Assembly: GCA_014800525.1 (NCBI GenBank)
Contig: JAAVFV010000050.1
Span: 1-33,241, forward strand
Reading direction: 5' to 3'
Length of the DNA: 33,241 nt
Source: Bacteroidales bacterium
Lineage (GTDB): Bacteria; Bacteroidota; Bacteroidia; Bacteroidales; Muribaculaceae
Under the pieces are notes generated by a model. That model did no database searches and was not told the DNA's origin. It saw nothing but the letters and a program-made list of their open reading frames with translations. The position numbers and the translations under genes were made by a program. Shown piece after piece: positions 3,484 through 12,294 of this stretch; position 1 is the stretch's first letter; every line of letters begins with the position of its first letter.

Positions 3484-3583
3484 GTTTCCAGTATAATGGA
3501 AATGTATGAGGGATTTGGTGAAAGTTTCTGTTATACTGGAAACTTTTATTATATTTATAAAAAGTTTAGGATATAATGGAAAC
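3484..3583. repeat. Three 20-bp palindromic sites phased at 40 bp
   Basis: Sites lie at 3484-3503, 3524-3543 and 3564-3583. They are variants of the near-palindrome GTTTCCAGTATAATGGAAAC, and the middle one fits best when read on the opposite strand. Starts are exactly 40 bp apart, so each 20-bp site is followed by a 20-bp AT-rich gap and all sites lie on the same helix face. This suggests cooperative binding of a dimeric regulator or another DNA-binding protein. No gene of note follows. The third site ends one base before a 12-codon reading frame (3585-3623). Confidence 0.65.
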
Positions 3584-3639
3584 TATGACTTATATATTTC
3601 GTGCTCAATATTTCATGTATTAAGAATCGACATATAAAT

Positions 3640-3732
3640 GTGGACATTAAAGTGGAATTAGACCCCAAACTTTACCACTACCGGAATACTTCCGGCAGGC
3701 TCTTCGTAAGCATCTTAATAAACGCGAGATAA
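3640..3732 (+). pseudogene. Possible relic of an integrase-type N-terminus (30 codons)
   Basis: From a GTG at 3640 the frame reads VDIKVELDPKLYHY...SGRLFVSILINAR and stops at 3732. The alternating pattern loosely resembles the arm-binding N-terminus of Bacteroidales tyrosine integrases, but the fragment is far too short to assign. It overlaps the first two bases of the next hairpin. No start site or promoter supports it as a gene, so it may be a remnant or chance. Confidence 0.15.
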
Positions 3733-3778
3733 TAGAAAAGAGATATTCAGCCATCGAGCTGAATATCTCTTTTCTATT
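3731..3778. terminator. Hairpin terminator downstream of the porin gene
   Basis: A perfect 21-bp stem (3731-3751 with 3758-3778) closes a 6-base loop CATCGA. It lies 75 bases beyond the stop of the minus-strand porin gene. Read on that strand, the second arm is pyrimidine-rich (CTCTTTTCTATT), so the structure works best as the porin terminator. Confidence 0.7.
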
Positions 3779-3853
3779 GTTGTCACTTTTTGTATTATGA
3801 TTATTGGTTGAACCGTCGGGGCGATCCAGACGTGTTGACGCAATTCCGTGACG

Positions 3854-5131
3854 TTAGAATGTTACTGCGAGCTGGGCCTGGATACGGTTTGAATGGAGAC
3901 CTTCGCCTCCGAATGTCTTCATGTGACCATAGTCGTATTCGATGCCGGCAGAGAGGAATTTGTTGAAGGCGTAGATAAGGTTGGCAGCAGCGTAGTCGCC
4001 ATAGCGATATGTATCCTTGGTAGTGATAGCTCCATCAGGCATCCAATTGGTGAGATGACTATACGACAGGTTGGCGGTGAGTTTGGGGTTGAAAGCATAG
4101 TTCAGTCCTGCTGTCAGACCCATATTCTTTACGGCCTTGAGCTTGCCGGGGGTGGAGGTCATTACGGCATCGAGGGCCAGACCATTGTCATCCTGGAGGT
4201 AATTACTGATACCGGCACCATAAGTGGCGTCGAACTGCACGGAAAGATTATCCACCACCTTTGTCATACCCGAAAGCTGGATACCGCCACCATTTACGGT
4301 CTTATTCTTCGCAACATCAAGATTGCGGTATTGCATCGGGCGATAGATTCCGGAGAGGCGGACATGAGAATCTCCGTCGTTCCAGGCATATTGGAGATAA
4401 AGAGGGATTGCGGGGATGCGCTGGGATACAAATTGTGTGGTATTATCAAGAGAGAGATCACCCGTGGGGGCATCGATACCGATGGCTCCGGAGAAATTCT
4501 TGTTGAATGATTGTGTCCAGTACGCGGTGAATAGGGAGATGGAAACCGAACCGTTGGGGCCTTCGCTATCGATGGTCATAGGCATCGCATCGCCGTCAGT
4601 GAAGAGGGAGTTGGTATAACCCATTGTGAGGCCACGGAATTTACCATAGAAATGAGAGACCTTGATGCCATTGTTGGCTCCTGTGAATTTAGCTTTGAAG
4701 AAGACACCGATGGAATTTCCGGAATTAGGCATGGCCACAAAGTTCATATAGAACGATGATGACTGCCATGCGAATCTTGTGGCGCCTCCGTTACCGGGAG
4801 TTTTCGGGGTGATGGAAGAGGGTGTGAAGTCGAGGGCTGAGGGCATCGGATCTCCGAAATCAAACATAGCTTCACCGAGGAACTGAGCGCCTATACCGAG
4901 ATAGAACTGGCGGTCTTTCCCTACGATAGCGAAACGCGGAAGGCCATTATCATTGGGAGTGCTGGGAGCATTCTCCTGAAGAGATTTCTTAAGCTCTTCG
5001 GTGTTAGCGGAATTGATAAGAGGAGTCACCACATCATGAGATTCATGACGGCTGTCACGCTGTGCATGGGCTGAGAATCCGGTTAGACCCACAAGGAGAA
5101 GGAGGGAAAGAGCGAGGTAATTTTTTTTCAT
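3854..5131 (-). CDS. DcaP-like outer-membrane porin
   Basis: The protein has 425 residues and a Sec signal peptide of about 24 residues ending in AHAQ. The mature part begins with a Ser/Asn-rich linker and then FYLGIGAQFLGEAMFDFGD, which resembles the opening strand of DcaP-type trimeric porins. Regularly alternating amphipathic segments follow, and the last residues AQLAVTF end in the terminal Phe that outer-membrane barrels use for BAM recognition. Family members take up small or anionic solutes, but the substrate here is not evident. The gene is apparently monocistronic, with an AT-rich upstream region shared with the truncated fragments on the other strand and a terminator at 3731-3778. 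Confidence 0.8.
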   Translation of the reverse strand: MKKNYLALSLLLLVGLTGFSAHAQRDSRHESHDVVTPLINSANTEELKKSLQENAPSTPNDNGLPRFAIVGKDRQFYLGIGAQFLGEAMFDFGDPMPSALDFTPSSITPKTPGNGGATRFAWQSSSFYMNFVAMPNSGNSIGVFFKAKFTGANNGIKVSHFYGKFRGLTMGYTNSLFTDGDAMPMTIDSEGPNGSVSISLFTAYWTQSFNKNFSGAIGIDAPTGDLSLDNTTQFVSQRIPAIPLYLQYAWNDGDSHVRLSGIYRPMQYRNLDVAKNKTVNGGGIQLSGMTKVVDNLSVQFDATYGAGISNYLQDDNGLALDAVMTSTPGKLKAVKNMGLTAGLNYAFNPKLTANLSYSHLTNWMPDGAITTKDTYRYGDYAAANLIYAFNKFLSAGIEYDYGHMKTFGGEGLHSNRIQAQLAVTF

Positions 5132-5426: not shown

Positions 5427-5541
5427 AGAGCGAAAGCAGATACTTGACAGTCAACAGACCCAGATTGGTCTTAAATCAGCCATCATTGAAAAGGATTGGT
5501 GGGTCACGGCTGTATTTTTCTTGATAGGCATATTCCATTAG
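5401..5541 (+). pseudogene. Truncated AbiEii/AbiGii-type nucleotidyltransferase toxin (N-terminal 40 residues)
   Basis: The frame starts at ATG 5401 with MKFIDIPLEERKQIL and continues to IIEKDWWVTAVFF. This matches the usual N-terminus of AbiEii nucleotidyltransferase toxins of type IV toxin-antitoxin systems, including the EKDWWV signature. Homology stops at about base 5520. There the DNA switches to serpin sequence in another frame and a stop follows at 5541. Full-length members have roughly 250-300 residues and a nucleotidyltransferase core, so this copy cannot be functional. Confidence 0.7.
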
Positions 5542-5777
5542 AAAATATGGGTGAATGTGGAACCACCGGACATTACTCTCTACCCGAAATAGTGACAAAT
5601 CGAATTCACGTTATTGTGAATGAAGAGGGTACGAAAGTGATCTCAGCCACACATTCCGGAACCCCGACATCTAATTATCATCAACCCTTTATTGTTGACC
5701 GTCCCTTTATCTGCTATATCTCTGAGAAGAGCACCAATGCGATCGTATTTGCAGGGGTGATCAATACTCTTAAGTAA
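5520..5777 (+). pseudogene. 3' fragment of a serpin gene
   Basis: This encodes the last 85 residues of a serpin (LDRHIPLENMGECGTTGHYS ... VINTLK), with the hinge EEGTKVISAT, the reactive-centre loop and the DRPF motif. It is almost identical to the end of the intact serpin at 8848-10125: I count 7 base differences in 258 and 4 amino-acid differences, three of them in the reactive-centre loop. It has no start, signal peptide or serpin core. It is fused at base 5520 to the AbiEii fragment, out of frame with it. Confidence 0.88.
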
Positions 5778-5880
5778 ATAGCCGCGTAGAGACTATTTAT
5801 AGTCGAGTTGGGCTATACTGAATCCGTACTTTCATGATAGTCTTAATTATATAGGGATACGTAAGTGTTCAAATTTAAAC
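5520..5880 (+). repeat. Duplicated serpin 3' end plus downstream DNA, copy A
   Basis: Bases 5520-5880 correspond to 9868-10229 with one single-base length difference. They cover the serpin C-terminus, the downstream hairpin and the flanking AT-rich bases up to AAATTTAAAC. In this copy the hairpin arms have mismatches, whereas in copy B they are perfect, which fits decay of the unused copy. Confidence 0.9.
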
Positions 5881-5928: not shown

Positions 5929-6008
5929 TGTAAGCTCCAAATGGAGTGGTGATAGATTCTATTTATATAGTTTTAGAAAAAATCATTATTAAATTTAATA
6001 CTAAACCG

Positions 6009-6758
6009 ATGGGAATTATTGTAATTATCATAATTATTTTGATAATGATGTTCGGGAAATGGTTAGGTTTCTTACTACTCATACCATATCTCCGATTCAA
6101 AAACCGACGGATGAAGACTATAATCCGTCCCGTAGAAGCTTCTCCTGCCGAGGAAAATGGTAAGGAGAATGGTAATGTTTCCGCCACTCCTGCAATGAAG
6201 AGAGTTCTGAGGAAGGTGAGAAGATATATGGATGGCGTCGTGAGGTATTTGGATATTCAAACCGGACTCATACCGTCACATCATATCCGGAATTTCATAT
6301 ATCGTAATATATTCGGAGTAAAGTTAGCAGAAAGGGTGGTGATTTATTATGGGGCTGAGATCAGGTCACATTCGGGATTAGAGATTGGTGAAGGATCAAT
6401 AATAGGAGATAAAGCTATTTTAGATGCGCGAAATGGAATAATTCTGGGTCGGAATGTGAATATCTCCACAGGAGTACAAATCTGGACGGAGCAGCATGCT
6501 CATTCTGATCCGTGGTTTCGTTGTATGAGTGATGAATCGTTCAGGGTGGAGATAGGAGATAGAGTCTGGGTAGGACCTCGGGTCACCATCCTTCACTCGG
6601 TTCGCATTGGAGAGGGGGCTGTGATAGCAGCCGGAGCAGTAGTCACTAAGGATGTCGAGCCCTATTCGATAGTGGCGGGTATGCCAGCCAAGAAGATTGG
6701 GATGCGGAATTCCGATTTACGTTACGAATTTGATGGGACCCACCTCCCGTTATATTAG
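6009..6758 (+). CDS. Membrane-anchored hexapeptide-repeat acyltransferase
   Basis: The N-terminus has one strongly hydrophobic segment (IIVIIIIILIMMFGKWLGFL) and then a charged linker. From about residue 90 there is a left-handed beta-helix acyltransferase of the CatB/LacA/WcaF class: IGEGSIIGDKAILDARNGI, GRNVNISTGVQIWTEQHAH, IGDRVWVGPRVTILHSVRIG and GAVIAAGAVVTKDVEPYSIVAGMPAKKIG. The His in QIWTEQHAH and the VWVG block are typical of acetyl-CoA-dependent O-acetyltransferases acting on sugars. A role in decorating a surface polysaccharide is inferred. I chose the ATG at 6009; an in-frame GTG at 5946 would add 21 residues. No partner gene is adjacent. Confidence 0.83.
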   Translation: MGIIVIIIIILIMMFGKWLGFLLLIPYLRFKNRRMKTIIRPVEASPAEENGKENGNVSATPAMKRVLRKVRRYMDGVVRYLDIQTGLIPSHHIRNFIYRNIFGVKLAERVVIYYGAEIRSHSGLEIGEGSIIGDKAILDARNGIILGRNVNISTGVQIWTEQHAHSDPWFRCMSDESFRVEIGDRVWVGPRVTILHSVRIGEGAVIAAGAVVTKDVEPYSIVAGMPAKKIGMRNSDLRYEFDGTHLPLY

Positions 6759-7459: not shown

Positions 7460-7491
7460 CTTGTAGGTGTAGAATTTTAATCCTATATTTG
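7460..7491 (+). promoter_or_regulatory. Bacteroidetes-type promoter of protease-serpin cassette 1
   Basis: CTTG at 7460-7463 (the -33 region) and TATATTTG at 7484-7491 (-7, consensus TAnnTTTG) are separated by 20 bp. The protease start lies 54 bases downstream. The block CTATATTTGCAT is repeated before the deleted protease copy at 10638. Confidence 0.65.
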
Positions 7492-7545
7492 CATGGTAGA
7501 TGTATCTTCGAAGTGCATAATCATTAACAATTAACTCCAACCATT

Positions 7546-8793
7546 ATGAAGAAACTTCTTCCAATGGTATTTCTCTTACTTCTTTCATCATGTTCCGGGC
7601 TACTACAGGAACCTATTGTCGATGATGACAATTCTCCCAAAGATGCTATTTCTGAATATGAAGTAAGTATTGAGGATGCCATAAAGATTGCAGAAAAATA
7701 TCGTCAGGAACTAAGTTCCGGTGCTGGAACCACGAGATCATGTTCTCCTATCAAATCGATTGAGACAATTAAGAATCACAAGACTCGCTCAGAAGGAGAG
7801 AGTGCTATTGAAAATTACTTTTATCTCATTAATTATTCAGGAGATGGAGGCTTTGCCCTCTTGGGTGCTGATAAAAGAATGGCCCCTCTTTATGCAGTGT
7901 CTGATGACGGCCAATTGAGTATGCAGGATACACTCTGGAATCCTGGACTCTCCTCTATGATAAATTCCTACATCAATCAAGCAAATGAAACTATAGATGA
8001 TCCCTATCAACCAGTGGATAGTCTTATTACGGGTTTGACTCCTCCTTATGCAAATATTATAATACATGAAGAGCAATATAAGGTTTGTTCTCCGGTTTTG
8101 ACACCCTATGTGAGACAATGGCACCAGGAAGCGCCATATAATAATTGTACTCTTGAATTGTATAACCAAAATACACAACAGAAGGAACATGCACTTGTAG
8201 GGTGTCTGCCATTATCTTTAGGTATGATAATGAGTTATTATGAATATCCTGAATCATATATAGGATATGCTTACGATTGGCCTGCTATGAAGACCGGTAA
8301 AGGAGACTGGAAGGTTGCTCATTTAGTTGCTTGTTTGGGCCATAAGGACAATCTCCAAGCCACATATGGATTTAAAGGTACGTCTGCCTCTGTAAGAAAT
8401 ATCCCAAGAGCACTGGGTAACTTCGGTTATCATTCACCGAAAGGACAACAATCTTATTCCTCTGTGATGACACCAACTATAATAGAGATTAAGAACCCTA
8501 TGTTAGTGGTTGGAAATAGTAACGATGGTGGTGGCTGTCATGCATGGGTAATAGATGGTAGTATATGGCATCATATCCCGGCTGAAATATCAAGCGATTA
8601 TAGACATCATGACTATCACTATATTCATTGCGTCTGGGGATGGGGGGGATCTGGTAATGGCTATTACCTTGCTGAGGCTTCTACCTTAGGCGGTACATGC
8701 TATAAACCGGACGCTGATGATTTGTATACATATGGAATTGATTTCAAATACCATGTAGATGATATTTGGACAGATATTAAACCCTTAAAATAG
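7546..8793 (+). CDS. Secreted C10 (streptopain-type) cysteine protease with Spi-like propeptide, lipoprotein
   Basis: The protein has 415 residues. A lipoprotein signal ends with the lipobox at Cys16 (LSSCSG). Residues ~35-160 look like the inhibitory Spi-type propeptide (VSIEDAIKIAEKY, GGFALLGADKRMAPLYAVS). The catalytic domain starts near 185 with VRQWHQEAPYNNC, the usual opening of C10 peptidases. The nucleophile is Cys220 in LVGCLPLSLGMIMSYY, the catalytic His is His332 in GGGCHAWVIDG, and VWGWGGSGNGYY (~363-374) is the family Trp/Gly block. Relatives are SpeB and the Bfp proteases of Bacteroides fragilis. The substitution around the nucleophile (CLPLS instead of the usual Cys-small-Ala run) is unusual but keeps the Cys. 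A serpin follows 54 bases downstream on the same transcript, a plausible inhibitor partner. Confidence 0.88.
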   Translation: MKKLLPMVFLLLLSSCSGLLQEPIVDDDNSPKDAISEYEVSIEDAIKIAEKYRQELSSGAGTTRSCSPIKSIETIKNHKTRSEGESAIENYFYLINYSGDGGFALLGADKRMAPLYAVSDDGQLSMQDTLWNPGLSSMINSYINQANETIDDPYQPVDSLITGLTPPYANIIIHEEQYKVCSPVLTPYVRQWHQEAPYNNCTLELYNQNTQQKEHALVGCLPLSLGMIMSYYEYPESYIGYAYDWPAMKTGKGDWKVAHLVACLGHKDNLQATYGFKGTSASVRNIPRALGNFGYHSPKGQQSYSSVMTPTIIEIKNPMLVVGNSNDGGGCHAWVIDGSIWHHIPAEISSDYRHHDYHYIHCVWGWGGSGNGYYLAEASTLGGTCYKPDADDLYTYGIDFKYHVDDIWTDIKPLK

Positions 8794-8847
8794 AGAAGTC
8801 TCTGTATAAGATAAAATAAGATTTATAAATAACTAATACTTACGACT

Positions 8848-10125
8848 ATGAAATGGCTAATTAAGACTGTCTCAATCGTCCTTCTGGGTATGGGCTGTTT
8901 CGCCTGTAGCTCTGATGAAACTTCTAATGAAGGTCCTATAAATCCTAAGGGAGAACCCGTATTCAGTCCGTTGACTCTTACCCCGGCTGAAGTTAAATTA
9001 GGCGTGGATATCAGAAAAGTGGGTATCAATCTGTTTCAAGCGCAGAGCGAGGACAATGCCAATCATGATAAAAACCTTAATACTCTCCTCTCCCCATGGA
9101 ACCAATATATGTTCCTTGCCATGCTTATGAATGGTGCTAATGATTCCGTTCAGCAGGTGGTGATGAGTCAGCAGGGAATAAGCAGCATGGGAGAGATGAA
9201 TGAATATATGAAGCGTGTCACGGAATATCTGTCAAGAGCGGATGCCCGCGTCAGTATGTCATCATTCAATTCATTCTGGTATGATCGCAATCTTTCCATA
9301 GATTCTAATTATGAAAGCCTTCTCCGGAACTTTTATAATGCGGAAGTTTATACCGCGGATTTAGGGTCAAGTGAAGGAACTCAGGCTATTAATGCGTGGG
9401 GAAATAAAGTTACCAAAGGATATTTGGAAGATTTTTTACCGGATATGGTCTATTACCGGAATTATTTCTTAGCTTCCGCGATGGTGTTTGAAGGTCAATG
9501 GGAGAAGAAATTCACGCGTGCCACTACTGAGAAGCAATTCCATAATCTGGATGGTGCGACTGTAACGATTCCCATGATGACAGGACAGTTATCCAATACA
9601 TATTTCTTTCAGAATGGAAAATTCTCCAAAACTTCCATCCCATATGGAAACGGTGCATATAGCATGACACTTATACTTCCTAAGGAGGGATATGATCCGT
9701 TGGCTTTGCTCCGGGATAATGACGTAGCTCTCTTCGCTGATATGGAGGAATTGAGAGATCAAGAAGGATTCTTTGATACGGATGTGTACGTGACAATGCC
9801 TATGATGGATCTGAAGGCTGAAGGGAATTCCAATAATGCATTCACCAGGGCCGGCTATGGATCATTACTTGATAGGCATATTCCATTAGAAAATATGGGT
9901 GAATGTGGAACCACCGGACATTACTCTCTCCCCGAAATAGTGATAAATCGAATTCACGTTATTGTGAATGAAGAGGGTACGAAAGTGATCTCAGCCACAC
10001 ATTCCGGAGACCCGACAGCTAATTATCATCAATCCTTTATTGTTGACCGTCCCTTTATCTGCTATATCTCTGAGAAGAGCACCAATGCGATCGTATTTGC
10101 AGGGGTGATCAATACTCTTAAGTAA
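8848..10125 (+). CDS. Serpin lipoprotein 1 (protease inhibitor, I4 family)
   Basis: The protein has 425 residues with a lipobox (LGMGCFAC) for surface or periplasmic anchoring. The serpin fold is clear: NTLLSPWNQYMFLAMLMNGA (the conserved N-x-x-SP region), SFNSFWYD, the shutter-region LASAMVFEGQWEKKF, PYGNGAYSMTLILP and DRPFICYI near the end. The hinge is E375-E-G-T-K-V-I-S-A-T. Counting 15 residues from Gly (P15), and checking against the 8 residues before DRPF, gives P1 = Ala391 and P1' = Asn392, with P4-P4' DPTA-NYHQ. Hinge residues P12-P11 (Val-Ile) are bulkier than ideal but compatible with loop insertion. Serpins of Bacteroidales such as miropin of Tannerella inhibit a wide range of proteases. 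Here the adjacent C10 protease is the obvious candidate target, which is inference. Confidence 0.9.
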   Translation: MKWLIKTVSIVLLGMGCFACSSDETSNEGPINPKGEPVFSPLTLTPAEVKLGVDIRKVGINLFQAQSEDNANHDKNLNTLLSPWNQYMFLAMLMNGANDSVQQVVMSQQGISSMGEMNEYMKRVTEYLSRADARVSMSSFNSFWYDRNLSIDSNYESLLRNFYNAEVYTADLGSSEGTQAINAWGNKVTKGYLEDFLPDMVYYRNYFLASAMVFEGQWEKKFTRATTEKQFHNLDGATVTIPMMTGQLSNTYFFQNGKFSKTSIPYGNGAYSMTLILPKEGYDPLALLRDNDVALFADMEELRDQEGFFDTDVYVTMPMMDLKAEGNSNNAFTRAGYGSLLDRHIPLENMGECGTTGHYSLPEIVINRIHVIVNEEGTKVISATHSGDPTANYHQSFIVDRPFICYISEKSTNAIVFAGVINTLK

Positions 10126-10229
10126 ATAACCACGTAGAGACTATTCATAGTCGAGTTGGGCTATCCTGAATCCGTACTTTCAGGATAGCCTTAATTATAT
10201 TAGGGATATGTATGTGTTCAAATTTAAAC
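9868..10229 (+). repeat. Duplicated serpin 3' end plus downstream DNA, copy B (intact context)
   Basis: This is the parental-type copy of the segment also found at 5520-5880. It includes the last 85 codons of serpin 1, its hairpin and the motif TATGTGTTCAAATTTAA at 10211-10227, where the similarity ends. Confidence 0.9.
10159..10190 (+). terminator. Terminator hairpin of cassette 1
   Basis: GGCTATCCTGA (10159-10169) pairs perfectly with TCAGGATAGCC (10180-10190) around a 10-base loop, followed by TTAATTATATT. It lies 34 bases after the serpin 1 stop. Confidence 0.7.
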
Positions 10230-10614
10230 AAATGTATGACAGCAATAAATAACAATATAAAAATCACCGGCTCATAGGACTGCTATCTCATACACGTTAT
10301 ATTGGTATTTGATAGTGGGGTCTAAGTAGTAATGTGAATGGTACTACATCTTGTTTGGTAGACTATTAAATGAGAGAATGATAAGGATATCATTGTTTGT
10401 GAAGACATGAGGATACTAAAAAAGTACATTCGAATAAAGGAAACCACTGATCTGGATATAAGCATAGTGAGAATAATCGATGGAATGCATGATATGAATG
10501 GCTATAAATAGAATATATAATTAAAAATTGAATCGCAAATGCGTGTTATATAACGATTGGAGAAATATTATTCTAGCCAAGAATTGGTTAAGTGAAATAT
10601 TTTTTGAAAAATTA
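10230..10614. other. AT-rich intergenic region between the cassettes
   Basis: I see no supported gene here. A 34-codon frame at 10407-10511 (MRILKKYIRIKETT...) has no recognisable similarity or promoter and is treated as chance. The end of the region carries the second cassette's promoter. Confidence 0.5.
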
Positions 10615-10646
10615 TTTGGTAGTGTAAGATAAATACTCTATATTTG
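10615..10646 (+). promoter_or_regulatory. Bacteroidetes-type promoter of protease-serpin cassette 2
   Basis: TTTG at 10615-10618 and TATATTTG at 10639-10646 are spaced by 20 bp, a full match to the consensus. The flanking CTATATTTGCAT and the TTCGAAG/ATCATTAA leader are shared with cassette 1, so the promoter duplicated with the genes. The 5' leader before the ATG at 10697 is about 45 bases. Confidence 0.7.
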
Positions 10647-10696
10647 CATTCGAAGACGTTTTCCTCCAAAAATCATTAATATAACACCTATCAATT

Positions 10697-10955
10697 ATGA
10701 AGAAACTTCTACCCTTGGTTATCCTTCTACTCCTCTCCTCCTGTTCGGGGCTACTACAGGAGCCTGCGTTGGAGACGGATAAAGGTCAGGATGCGGCTCC
10801 ATCGAAATATGCAGTCAGCATAGAAGAATTTATTTGATGGTCGGACTCTTGGCGGAAAATCATATGATACAGCTCCGGATGAGTGGGTATCTTTAGGTAT
10901 CAAGTATACATTTAATTTGGGTAGTTTTTGGAGTGATATTAAACCTATAAAATGA
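10697..10955 (+). pseudogene. C10 protease gene with the catalytic part deleted
   Basis: Bases 10697-10834 encode MKKLLPLVILLLLSSCSGL ... VSIEEFI, matching the signal peptide and start of the propeptide of the protease at 7546, then stop at 10835-10837. Shifted by one frame, bases from ~10833 to 10955 encode FDGRTLGGKSYDTAPDEW ... FWSDIKPIK, matching the protease's last 40 residues (LGG...DIWTDIKPLK). About 330 codons, including both catalytic residues, are missing and the two ends are out of frame. Only a 46-residue lipopeptide could be made. The promoter and the downstream serpin remain intact. Confidence 0.9.
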
Positions 10956-10998
10956 TTTGATTTAAATAATGTGTTTTTAATTTCTAATTCGTACGGAT

Positions 10999-12294
10999 AT
11001 GAAATGGTTGATTAAGATGGTAGCTGCGGTGGTGCTTGGTAGTGCCTGTACGTCATGCAGCTCGGATGAGGACTCCGGTAACGGGCCCATCAATCCTAAT
11101 GGAGAACGTGTCTTCAGTCCGCTGACACTTACCCCGGCGGAGGTTAAATTGGGTGTCGATATCAAAAAAGTGGGTATCGGGCTGTTTCAGGCGGAGAGCG
11201 AGGTAAACTCTACGGCAATAGCACCAAAAAATACCTTGGTTTCTCCGTGGAACCAGTATATGTTCCTTGCCATGCTGATGAATGGAGCCAATGATTCCAT
11301 TCAGGAAAAGGTGATGGCCCGTCAGGGAATCACCAGCATGGAAGAGATGAACGCATATATGAAACGTGTGACTGAATATCTCATGAGAGCGGATGCACGT
11401 GTGAATATGTCATCCTTTAATGGCTTCTGGTATGATAATAATCTCTCTGTTAGTCCAAGTTACGAAAGTCTTCTTAGAGATTTTTATAATGCGGAGGTCA
11501 ATACCGCTGATTTCGGATCTTTGGACGGGACCTATACTGTGAATGCATGGGGAAAAAAGGTGACTCAAGGTTATCTTGATGACTTTTTACAAGAGGAAGA
11601 AGGACCATTCCATAAAAATTACTTCTTAGCATCGGCTATGGTGTTTGAGGGCCAATGGCAGAAGAAATTCACCCGTCTAAACGGTGCAAATGAGTTCCAC
11701 AATCTGGATGGTTCGACGGTAATGGTTTCTATGATGAATGGAGAATTCTCCGATGCTAATTGTTACACCACTGATAGATTCTCCAAGACTGCCATTCCTT
11801 ATGGAAACGGAGCCTATAGCATGAATATCATTCTTCCTGTCAATGGAGTGACTCCAACCGAACTGCTCCGGGAAAACGCTGAGACCCTCTTTGCCGATAT
11901 GGAAGAGCTGAGGGATAGAAATGGAGAAAATGAGCGCTGGATCGATGGAGGTGTATCAGTAACGATGCCCATTATGGATCTGAAGGCTGATGCGACTCCC
12001 AATCTTGCTTTCGTAGGAGCCGGCTATGGATCTCTACTTGATAGATATATTGCCTTAGAGAAAATGGGGGAATGTGGAACAACCGGCCACTACGGCCTTC
12101 CTGACAGTGTGAAGAGTCAAATACATGTCATAATTAATGAGGAGGGCACAAAGGTAATATCGGCTACTTATTCCGGGATGGTTACCTCCCCCGGAAGGTA
12201 TTGGTTTAACATCGACCGACCATTCATATGCTATATCTCTGAGAAGAGCACAAATGCAATTGTATTTGCCGCAGTAATCAACGTTCTCAAATAA
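10999..12294 (+). CDS. Serpin lipoprotein 2 (protease inhibitor, I4 family)
   Basis: The protein has 431 residues and a lipobox (LGSACTSC). It is collinear with serpin 1 over its full length: NTLVSPWNQYMFLAMLMNGA, SFNGFWYD, LASAMVFEGQWQKKF, PYGNGAYSMNIILP, DRPFICYI. The hinge EEGTKVISAT is identical, but the reactive-centre loop differs, with P4-P4' MVTS-PGRY and P1 = Ser397. Pro at P1' disfavours cleavage by many proteases, so the true scissile bond may be one residue earlier. The gene follows the deleted protease by 43 bases, so it has lost its partner but kept an open frame, promoter and terminator. That suggests selection to keep the inhibitor. Confidence 0.9.
   Translation: MKWLIKMVAAVVLGSACTSCSSDEDSGNGPINPNGERVFSPLTLTPAEVKLGVDIKKVGIGLFQAESEVNSTAIAPKNTLVSPWNQYMFLAMLMNGANDSIQEKVMARQGITSMEEMNAYMKRVTEYLMRADARVNMSSFNGFWYDNNLSVSPSYESLLRDFYNAEVNTADFGSLDGTYTVNAWGKKVTQGYLDDFLQEEEGPFHKNYFLASAMVFEGQWQKKFTRLNGANEFHNLDGSTVMVSMMNGEFSDANCYTTDRFSKTAIPYGNGAYSMNIILPVNGVTPTELLRENAETLFADMEELRDRNGENERWIDGGVSVTMPIMDLKADATPNLAFVGAGYGSLLDRYIALEKMGECGTTGHYGLPDSVKSQIHVIINEEGTKVISATYSGMVTSPGRYWFNIDRPFICYISEKSTNAIVFAAVINVLK

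Follow-up and report, generated by a model that had tools for sequence, protein, structure and literature searches.

The window analysed here, the whole stretch of 33,241 nucleotides (positions 1 to 33,241 of contig JAAVFV010000050.1) from a Bacteroidales bacterium of the family Muribaculaceae (GCA_014800525.1), carries two tandem cassettes in which an intact or a decayed gene of the C10 (streptopain) family of cysteine proteases is followed by the gene of a lipoprotein serpin. Serpins are protease inhibitors best known from animals. Adjacency of C10 and serpin genes is enriched and oriented, and the pair recurs over many genomes and genera with order and strand fixed. Behind lipoprotein C10 genes there is a slot in which some lipoprotein usually stands, and the serpin is one of its occupants; the finding is broader than first seen in the window. 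We propose, with a probability of roughly 0.6, that the serpin takes the place of the cognate inhibitor in a C10 operon and acts as the guard of the protease. A C10 protease with an exported guard is already known; a serpin in the role of the guard would be new.

The C10-serpin pair in the window and in related genomes

Cassette 1 of the window encodes an intact lipoprotein C10 protease of 415 amino acids (7546..8793; all window features given here lie on the forward strand). Pfam places a Spi-like prodomain (Inhibitor_I69) at residues 40-145 (E 5.2e-12) and Peptidase_C10 at residues 192-374 (E 1.8e-20), with 74.4 bits for PF01640 (cut-off 26) and 46.5 bits for PF13734 (cut-off 25). Cys220 is invariant across an alignment of 16 short C10 proteases, and the window protease also has His332, Trp364 and a WGWGG stretch. 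A profile of this protein and 15 relatives matches chains of streptopain (SpeB) and interpain A in the PDB. By its catalytic domain, its Cys and His and its Spi-like prodomain the protein belongs to peptidase family C10. After a gap of 54 bp follows serpin 1, a lipoprotein of 425 amino acids (8848..10125; Pfam Serpin E 3.5e-56). Both window serpins have a full serpin domain (PF00079, 191.4 and 169 bits, cut-off 27). Pfam and alignment thereby bear out the preliminary description, which had read cassette 1 from the sequence as a C10 protease with Cys220 and His332 followed by a lipoprotein serpin. The reactive loop of serpin 1 aligns without gaps to conserpin with an antitrypsin loop; using the P1 of antitrypsin, which we take to be Met, P1/P1' would lie at about Ala391/Asn392. 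PADLOC gave no match for the window protease or either window serpin, and NCBIfam nothing above cut-off for serpin 1. A contig search with both window serpins as queries returned no confirmed relative.

For the serpin survey, 111 genomes of the genus were searched, 59 of which have a serpin match, and the DNA around the full-length ones was examined. Serpins were counted if complete and at least 350 amino acids long, identical sequences once (e.g. L130 with L128, L167 with L166); reading frames open at a locus end and five serpin fragment rows of the genus listing are outside these counts. A C10 gene was scored as adjacent if its open reading frame lies directly upstream on the same strand at less than 400 bp, and as full-length from 340 amino acids on. 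In the genus, this holds for 34 of 110 full-length serpins (24 full-length C10 genes, 10 short or cut), compared with 3 of 110 with a C10 gene directly downstream and none with one on the opposite strand. A sample from other genera of the family has a C10 gene upstream of 15 of 45 serpins (11 full-length), downstream of one and on the opposite strand of none; the corresponding figures in a second such sample are 6 of 29 (5 full-length), none and none. By our estimate, chance would give less than one such neighbour per 110 serpins (about 5 C10 genes per roughly 2 million bases). An adjacency search had been proposed in the preliminary description, with a lack of enrichment as one conceivable outcome; this outcome did not occur. 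The more sensitive tblastn search of the 1500 bp upstream links 60 of 184 serpins directly to a C10 gene, and in the other 4 of the 64 matched serpins the C10 gene is present but another gene intervenes. Gaps between C10 gene and serpin have a median of 23 bp and are zero or negative in 5 of 41 cases.

The partner slot behind C10 genes

The slot was also viewed from the side of the protease, in a sample of short C10 proteases from 40 regions chosen among the better-ranked similarity matches to the window C10 (some of these, such as G126:C13 and G303:C39, and the lower rows were excluded). Behind 41 short C10 genes (at least 340 amino acids) stand 12 serpins, 20 other lipoproteins (19 by motif and L075 by eye), 5 other genes, one gene on the opposite strand and 3 contig ends. 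A lipoprotein occupies the slot in 32 of the 38 resolvable cases, and 12 of these are serpins. Nine non-serpin partners were scanned with Pfam, giving one match above cut-off (Mfa2-like, L078) and two weak ones; NCBIfam, searched with nine of the small partner lipoproteins, gave none above cut-off, and the PDB yielded one weak match (E 0.56) for one partner family. Outside the family, 42 loci were examined, not counting the broken C10 genes of L258 and L270 and the locus-end genes of L284 and L286. Here a lipoprotein, judged by eye, follows 13 of 14 resolvable C10 genes of less than 560 amino acids, L283 being the exception. In one of these loci (L271) the lipoprotein is a serpin that overlaps the C10 gene by 4 bp.

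A second C10 subtype, mostly of about 450-540 amino acids, also stands beside serpins, and its Cys and His are invariant in 12 rows. When the 111 genomes were searched with these 12 rows, the same 12 serpin-adjacent genes came back together with one remnant; among at most 14 candidates scored per genome, no further full-length copy lacking a neighbouring serpin was found. We do not use 12 of 12 as an independent count of serpin adjacency, because the same 12 genes built the search alignment. Eleven of the serpins concerned are intact; that of L116 is split and is followed by an intact serpin. The nearest relative of this subtype outside the family (L249) adjoins a lipoprotein of 273 amino acids that is not a serpin.

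On a C10 tree of 70 rows, from which 3 contig-end rows and one opposite-strand row were excluded, the partner type is clustered: the label serpin or other changes 8 times, as against 22.5 times with shuffled labels (none of 500 shuffles was as low). Partners have nevertheless been exchanged, since at least 6 of the changes are required by starred branches. The preliminary interpretation, centred on the serpin, is supported in part, by the enrichment and by the recurrent protease decay described below. It must be widened, however, to a serpin that is one occupant of a lipoprotein slot.

Several arrangements around this slot were observed in passing. A protein of the Mfa2-like cluster stands behind the serpin in L102 and L103 and directly behind the C10 gene in L078 and L098. 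Tandem paralogues of non-serpin partners occur beside broken C10 pieces in L104 (4873-13637), in several copies with one C10 gene in L107 (1116-5800) and between two C10 genes in L080 (18-4090). L244 has a C10 pair and an additional paralogue of the partner, with an exported PepSY-like protein, putatively inhibitor-like, encoded between them (3528-3965).

Protease decay and serpin retention

Of the 60 linked serpins, 40 stand behind a full-length C10 gene and 17 behind a decayed one, and 3 lie by a C10 gene at a contig end and belong to neither class (L119_443, L171, L197). The decayed cases are L028, L032, L111, L128, L129, L163 (twice), L166, L168, L173, L176, L193, L208, L216, L225, L236 and cassette 2 of the window. 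The reverse case, a full-length C10 gene with a broken serpin, was met once (L116). L129 and L216 were classed as decayed because there is too little room for the missing part of the C10 gene. In L193, L208 and L236 the C10 gene is nearly whole with in-frame stops, the frame being taken from match coordinates; the others are shortened. The choice of loci, made partly by full-length serpins, favours the decayed class, a bias which the sample of 41 short C10 genes limits but does not remove. The same remnant allele was met in two genomes (L128, L130). In genome G113, the serpins at L162 2677 and L163 4454 share a reactive loop, one standing behind an intact and the other behind a decayed C10 gene.

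Cassette 2 of the window is one such case, and L111 shows the same pattern of abutting N- and C-terminal C10 parts without a catalytic domain. The C10 remnant of cassette 2 begins with leader and prodomain start at 10697..10837, found by DNA match to cassette 1; read by eye, it has its ATG at 10697, 46 codons and a TGA at 10835-10837. A translated match at 10697-10879 has 52% identity to residues 1-61 of the window C10 and contains two TGA codons. In a different frame, the 3' tail at 10827..10955 aligns to residues 375-415 just 5' of serpin 2 (E 3e-4). Residues from about 47 to 374, including both catalytic residues, are missing. A shortened working mini-protease was considered and rejected: the remnant has an internal deletion and a broken frame and is therefore not a functional C10 enzyme. 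Serpin 2, a lipoprotein of 431 amino acids (10999..12294; Pfam Serpin E 2.4e-49), is uninterrupted and 68% identical to serpin 1 at the protein level. Within a loop stretch of 14 positions chosen by us, 9 differ between the two serpins, versus 124 of 411 positions elsewhere (Fisher p 0.015).

At the DNA level, 10671-10765 is 78% identical to 7519-7614 over about 95 bp, and the promoter-like stretch and leader align; 10927-10953 is 85% identical to 8765-8791 (C10 tail), and 10964-12294 is 70.5% identical to 8814-10125 (serpin part). A promoter-like start, leader, protease start and serpin common to both cassettes had been claimed in the preliminary description, as had the loss of the catalytic domain in the second, and both observations hold. 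The promoter-like TATATTTG lies at 7484..7491 in cassette 1 and, aligned with it, at 10639..10646 in cassette 2. The motif TAnnTTTG, which we take to be promoter-like, is weak when used alone, with 4 occurrences in the region and a shuffled mean of 4.0, and co-regulation was not argued from it.

The preliminary description had further likened the retained serpin to an immunity gene. Loss of the protease with retention of the serpin does recur (17 cases against one), but retention alone is no proof of immunity. The pattern also seems to occur with no serpin involved: module L247, whose partner is not a serpin, has a second copy of that partner (77% identical) behind what by eye resembles the leader of a deleted C10 gene, and the logic of retention may therefore not be special to serpins. 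The serpin is often kept after the protease has decayed, which suggests that it restrains the protease encoded beside it.

Proposed role, known systems and alternative explanations

In the mechanism that we propose, the C10 protease would be a lipoprotein synthesised as a zymogen, and the gene immediately downstream would encode a lipoprotein shielding the producer cell from that protease. This guard would be a small lipoprotein in many relatives and a serpin in the window and in several further instances. The serpin would offer its reactive loop to the C10 active site and trap the enzyme, in the manner of cross-class serpins acting on papain-like proteases. Where a cassette is duplicated in tandem, one copy could lose its protease to decay and keep the promoter-like start, the leader and the serpin. 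A serpin left alone in this way may still block the sister protease or proteases of neighbours. We favour a cognate guard because of the lipoprotein signals in both proteins, the short gaps, the published Bacteroides pairs and the precedent of SCCA1, a human serpin that inhibits staphopains; other serpins inhibit papain-like enzymes as well (PMC7863939).

The closest likeness is found in Bacteroides, where C10 genes are co-transcribed in tested cases with staphostatin-like genes whose proposed role is protection of the cell (PMC2873492; PMC3462683), the partners that had already been named in the preliminary description. In the bfp-bfi and btp-bti systems of B. fragilis and B. thetaiotaomicron, several C10 proteases have lipoprotein signals, and genes of small exported proteins lie within 35 bp (PMC2873492; PMC3462683). 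BtpZ has lost its catalytic Cys while BtiZ remains, in likeness to the decay described above; the authors think that BtiZ may be degenerating. The pair described here likewise has an exported partner directly beside the C10 gene on the same strand. This partner, however, is not a staphostatin-like protein of 116-138 amino acids located up- or downstream, but a serpin of about 425 amino acids located downstream. The word serpin is absent from the main texts of both articles (PMC2873492; PMC3462683). SpeB-Spi and staphopain-staphostatin share with our pair a papain-fold protease with a neighbouring inhibitor gene; Spi and the staphostatins are small and thought to be cytoplasmic, whereas the serpin has a lipoprotein signal (PMC3462683 and citations therein). 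In the KLIKK-potempin pairs of Tannerella forsythia, a secreted protease stands beside a small lipoprotein described as its specific inhibitor (PMC7296668). There the inhibitor gene precedes that of the protease; with a downstream partner, a serpin and a protease of family C10, the window pair lies outside this group. Miropin of Tannerella is itself a Bacteroidales serpin, and its chains (e.g. 5ncw) are among the PDB matches of serpin 1. It is described as a broad inhibitor of host and Porphyromonas gingivalis proteases, and the portions of the articles drawn on here mention no neighbouring C10 gene (PMC8201313; PMC7296668). The serpin-C10 pair had been taken to be undescribed, and in the accessible portions of the open-licence PubMed Central literature we found accounts of C10-staphostatin-like pairs, KLIKK-potempin pairs and single serpins, and none of a C10-serpin pair.

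An explanation without direct interaction is possible, though we consider it rather improbable: the C10 protease would digest host, dietary or rival proteins, the serpin would shield the surface from foreign, mostly serine, proteases, and the promoter would be shared because both are needed simultaneously. Miropin inhibits host proteases (PMC8201313; PMC7296668), and retention of the serpin after protease decay would fit independent use. In addition, up to 124 of the 184 serpins have no directly adjacent C10 gene (a contig or locus end lies upstream of 17 of the 184), so serpins also serve elsewhere. Such a division of labour is harder to reconcile with a serpin in the very slot that other lipoproteins fill behind related C10 genes, and with published Bacteroides occupants of the slot that are proposed protease inhibitors (PMC2873492; PMC3462683).

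Further, we doubt that C10 proteases attack competing relatives, with the downstream lipoprotein as surface immunity and protease-less tandem partners as orphan immunity genes. Diverse partners in one slot, the partner changes on the C10 tree, recurrent protease decay and tandem partner paralogues in L104, L107, L080, L247 and L244 would agree with it. In a polymorphic toxin-immunity system, a toxin domain fused to a delivery module would stand next to its immunity gene. No delivery or toxin-fusion module was noticed (in Pfam the window C10, the one C10 scanned for it, has no delivery module), and the zymogen layout of this C10 is ordinary and SpeB-like. Chance neighbourhood or an assembly artefact in a single genome (the window's own, 76.5% complete in 72 contigs) can practically be dismissed, given a pair that recurs across genomes and genera in fixed order and strand and one remnant allele present in two genomes.

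Besides the many unlinked serpins, several observations weigh against the serpin as cognate guard. With the hinge start defined as E-x-G-[T/S/A], positions P12-P9 carry small residues throughout (A, G, S, T, V) in 39 of the 56 linked serpins that could be parsed (4 of the 60 could not), so that most appear to have inhibitory-type hinges, but the same holds for 80 of the 104 unlinked serpins that could be parsed (20 of the 124 could not). A lipobox motif is present in 60 of 74 C10 proteases and in 36 of 40 serpins behind full-length C10 genes; the figure for serpins of the group that lack an upstream C10 reading frame is 109 of 129. As hinge type and lipobox rate are similar in unlinked serpins, neither marks the pair. 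Both window serpins have bulky Val/Ile at P12/P11; judged from the sequence, they may trap poorly or act by tight binding. The serpin-paired C10 proteases of L071 (1081-2325) and L102 (6207-7493) lack the catalytic His; they keep the catalytic Cys, have Asn or Glu at the position of the His and are possible pseudoenzymes. The two nearest tree neighbours of the window C10 (96, starred), those of L078 and L098, have non-serpin partners. Some decay assignments come from weak matches (L028, L168), and the loci come from fragmented assemblies. Distances of C10 and serpin correlate over 40 pairs (Mantel r 0.50, 0 of 5000 permutations), with 0.35 for pairs below 50% C10 identity and 0.64 among 23 short C10 proteases; the rank correlation is just 0.11 and species history is still contained in the Mantel figures, and co-evolution was set aside as an argument on these grounds. 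Finally, the gene order, its enrichment, the exchange of partners and the one-sided decay are observed; co-transcription, co-location at the surface, binding and inhibition of the C10 protease by the serpin are steps that we infer.

If the serpin is the cognate guard of its C10 neighbour, a fixed genetic partner would give dozens of prokaryotic serpins a concrete and testable target, in a group whose origin and physiological role are still to be elucidated according to a review (PMC8201313). The naturally paired genes would also be a ready source for structures of serpins with cysteine proteases, of which the authors of a 2021 review knew none (PMC7863939). Since the occupant of the slot can be exchanged, uncharacterised small lipoproteins become candidates for protease inhibitors. 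The copies with decayed protease lend themselves to a natural test of the partner as an immunity gene. A still wider view is speculative, and we think it unlikely in this full form: lipoprotein C10 proteases would constitute a large protease-immunity system of Bacteroidales with an exchangeable guard slot, into which serpins were recruited several times, and protease-less cassettes would be orphan surface immunity against kin or neighbours.

Additional serpin copy and wider gene contexts

The window contains, upstream of both cassettes, the 3' fragment of a third serpin copy with a copied 3' flank (5517..5880, coding to 5777), which is absent from the preliminary description. It is 95.6% identical in DNA to 9865-10229, the 3' end and 3' flank of serpin 1, and the open reading frame at 5496-5777 matches Pfam Serpin (E 1.4e-9). 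The window holds all three serpin matches of its own genome, and one of its five C10 matches.

In about 10 of 41 C10 maps, a TPR-type protein of about 575-690 amino acids, which by eye looks like a regulator and seems to have a membrane segment, is encoded upstream on the same strand, and an exported protein of about 115-147 amino acids follows it upstream of the C10-partner pair. Both are found in L072, L074, L075, L079, L089, L097, L099, L103 and L161 (the TPR-type protein with about 560-690 amino acids), and perhaps represent a dedicated regulator and a further component. Some of the small exported proteins are weakly DUF3244-like, all under the Pfam cut-off. Neither gene lies directly upstream of the window C10.

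A second recurring serpin context consists of the serpin, a gene of about 186 amino acids and one of about 400 (L131 2703-4483, L134, L136, L137, L147, L151, L160, L164). In L131, the one locus where they were tested, the former of these two genes encodes an ECF sigma factor and the latter an outer-membrane barrel protein, a setting that likewise weighs against the serpin as C10 guard. Within the window, a hexapeptide-repeat acyltransferase gene at 5946-6758, apparently unrelated to the system, separates the serpin fragment from cassette 1.

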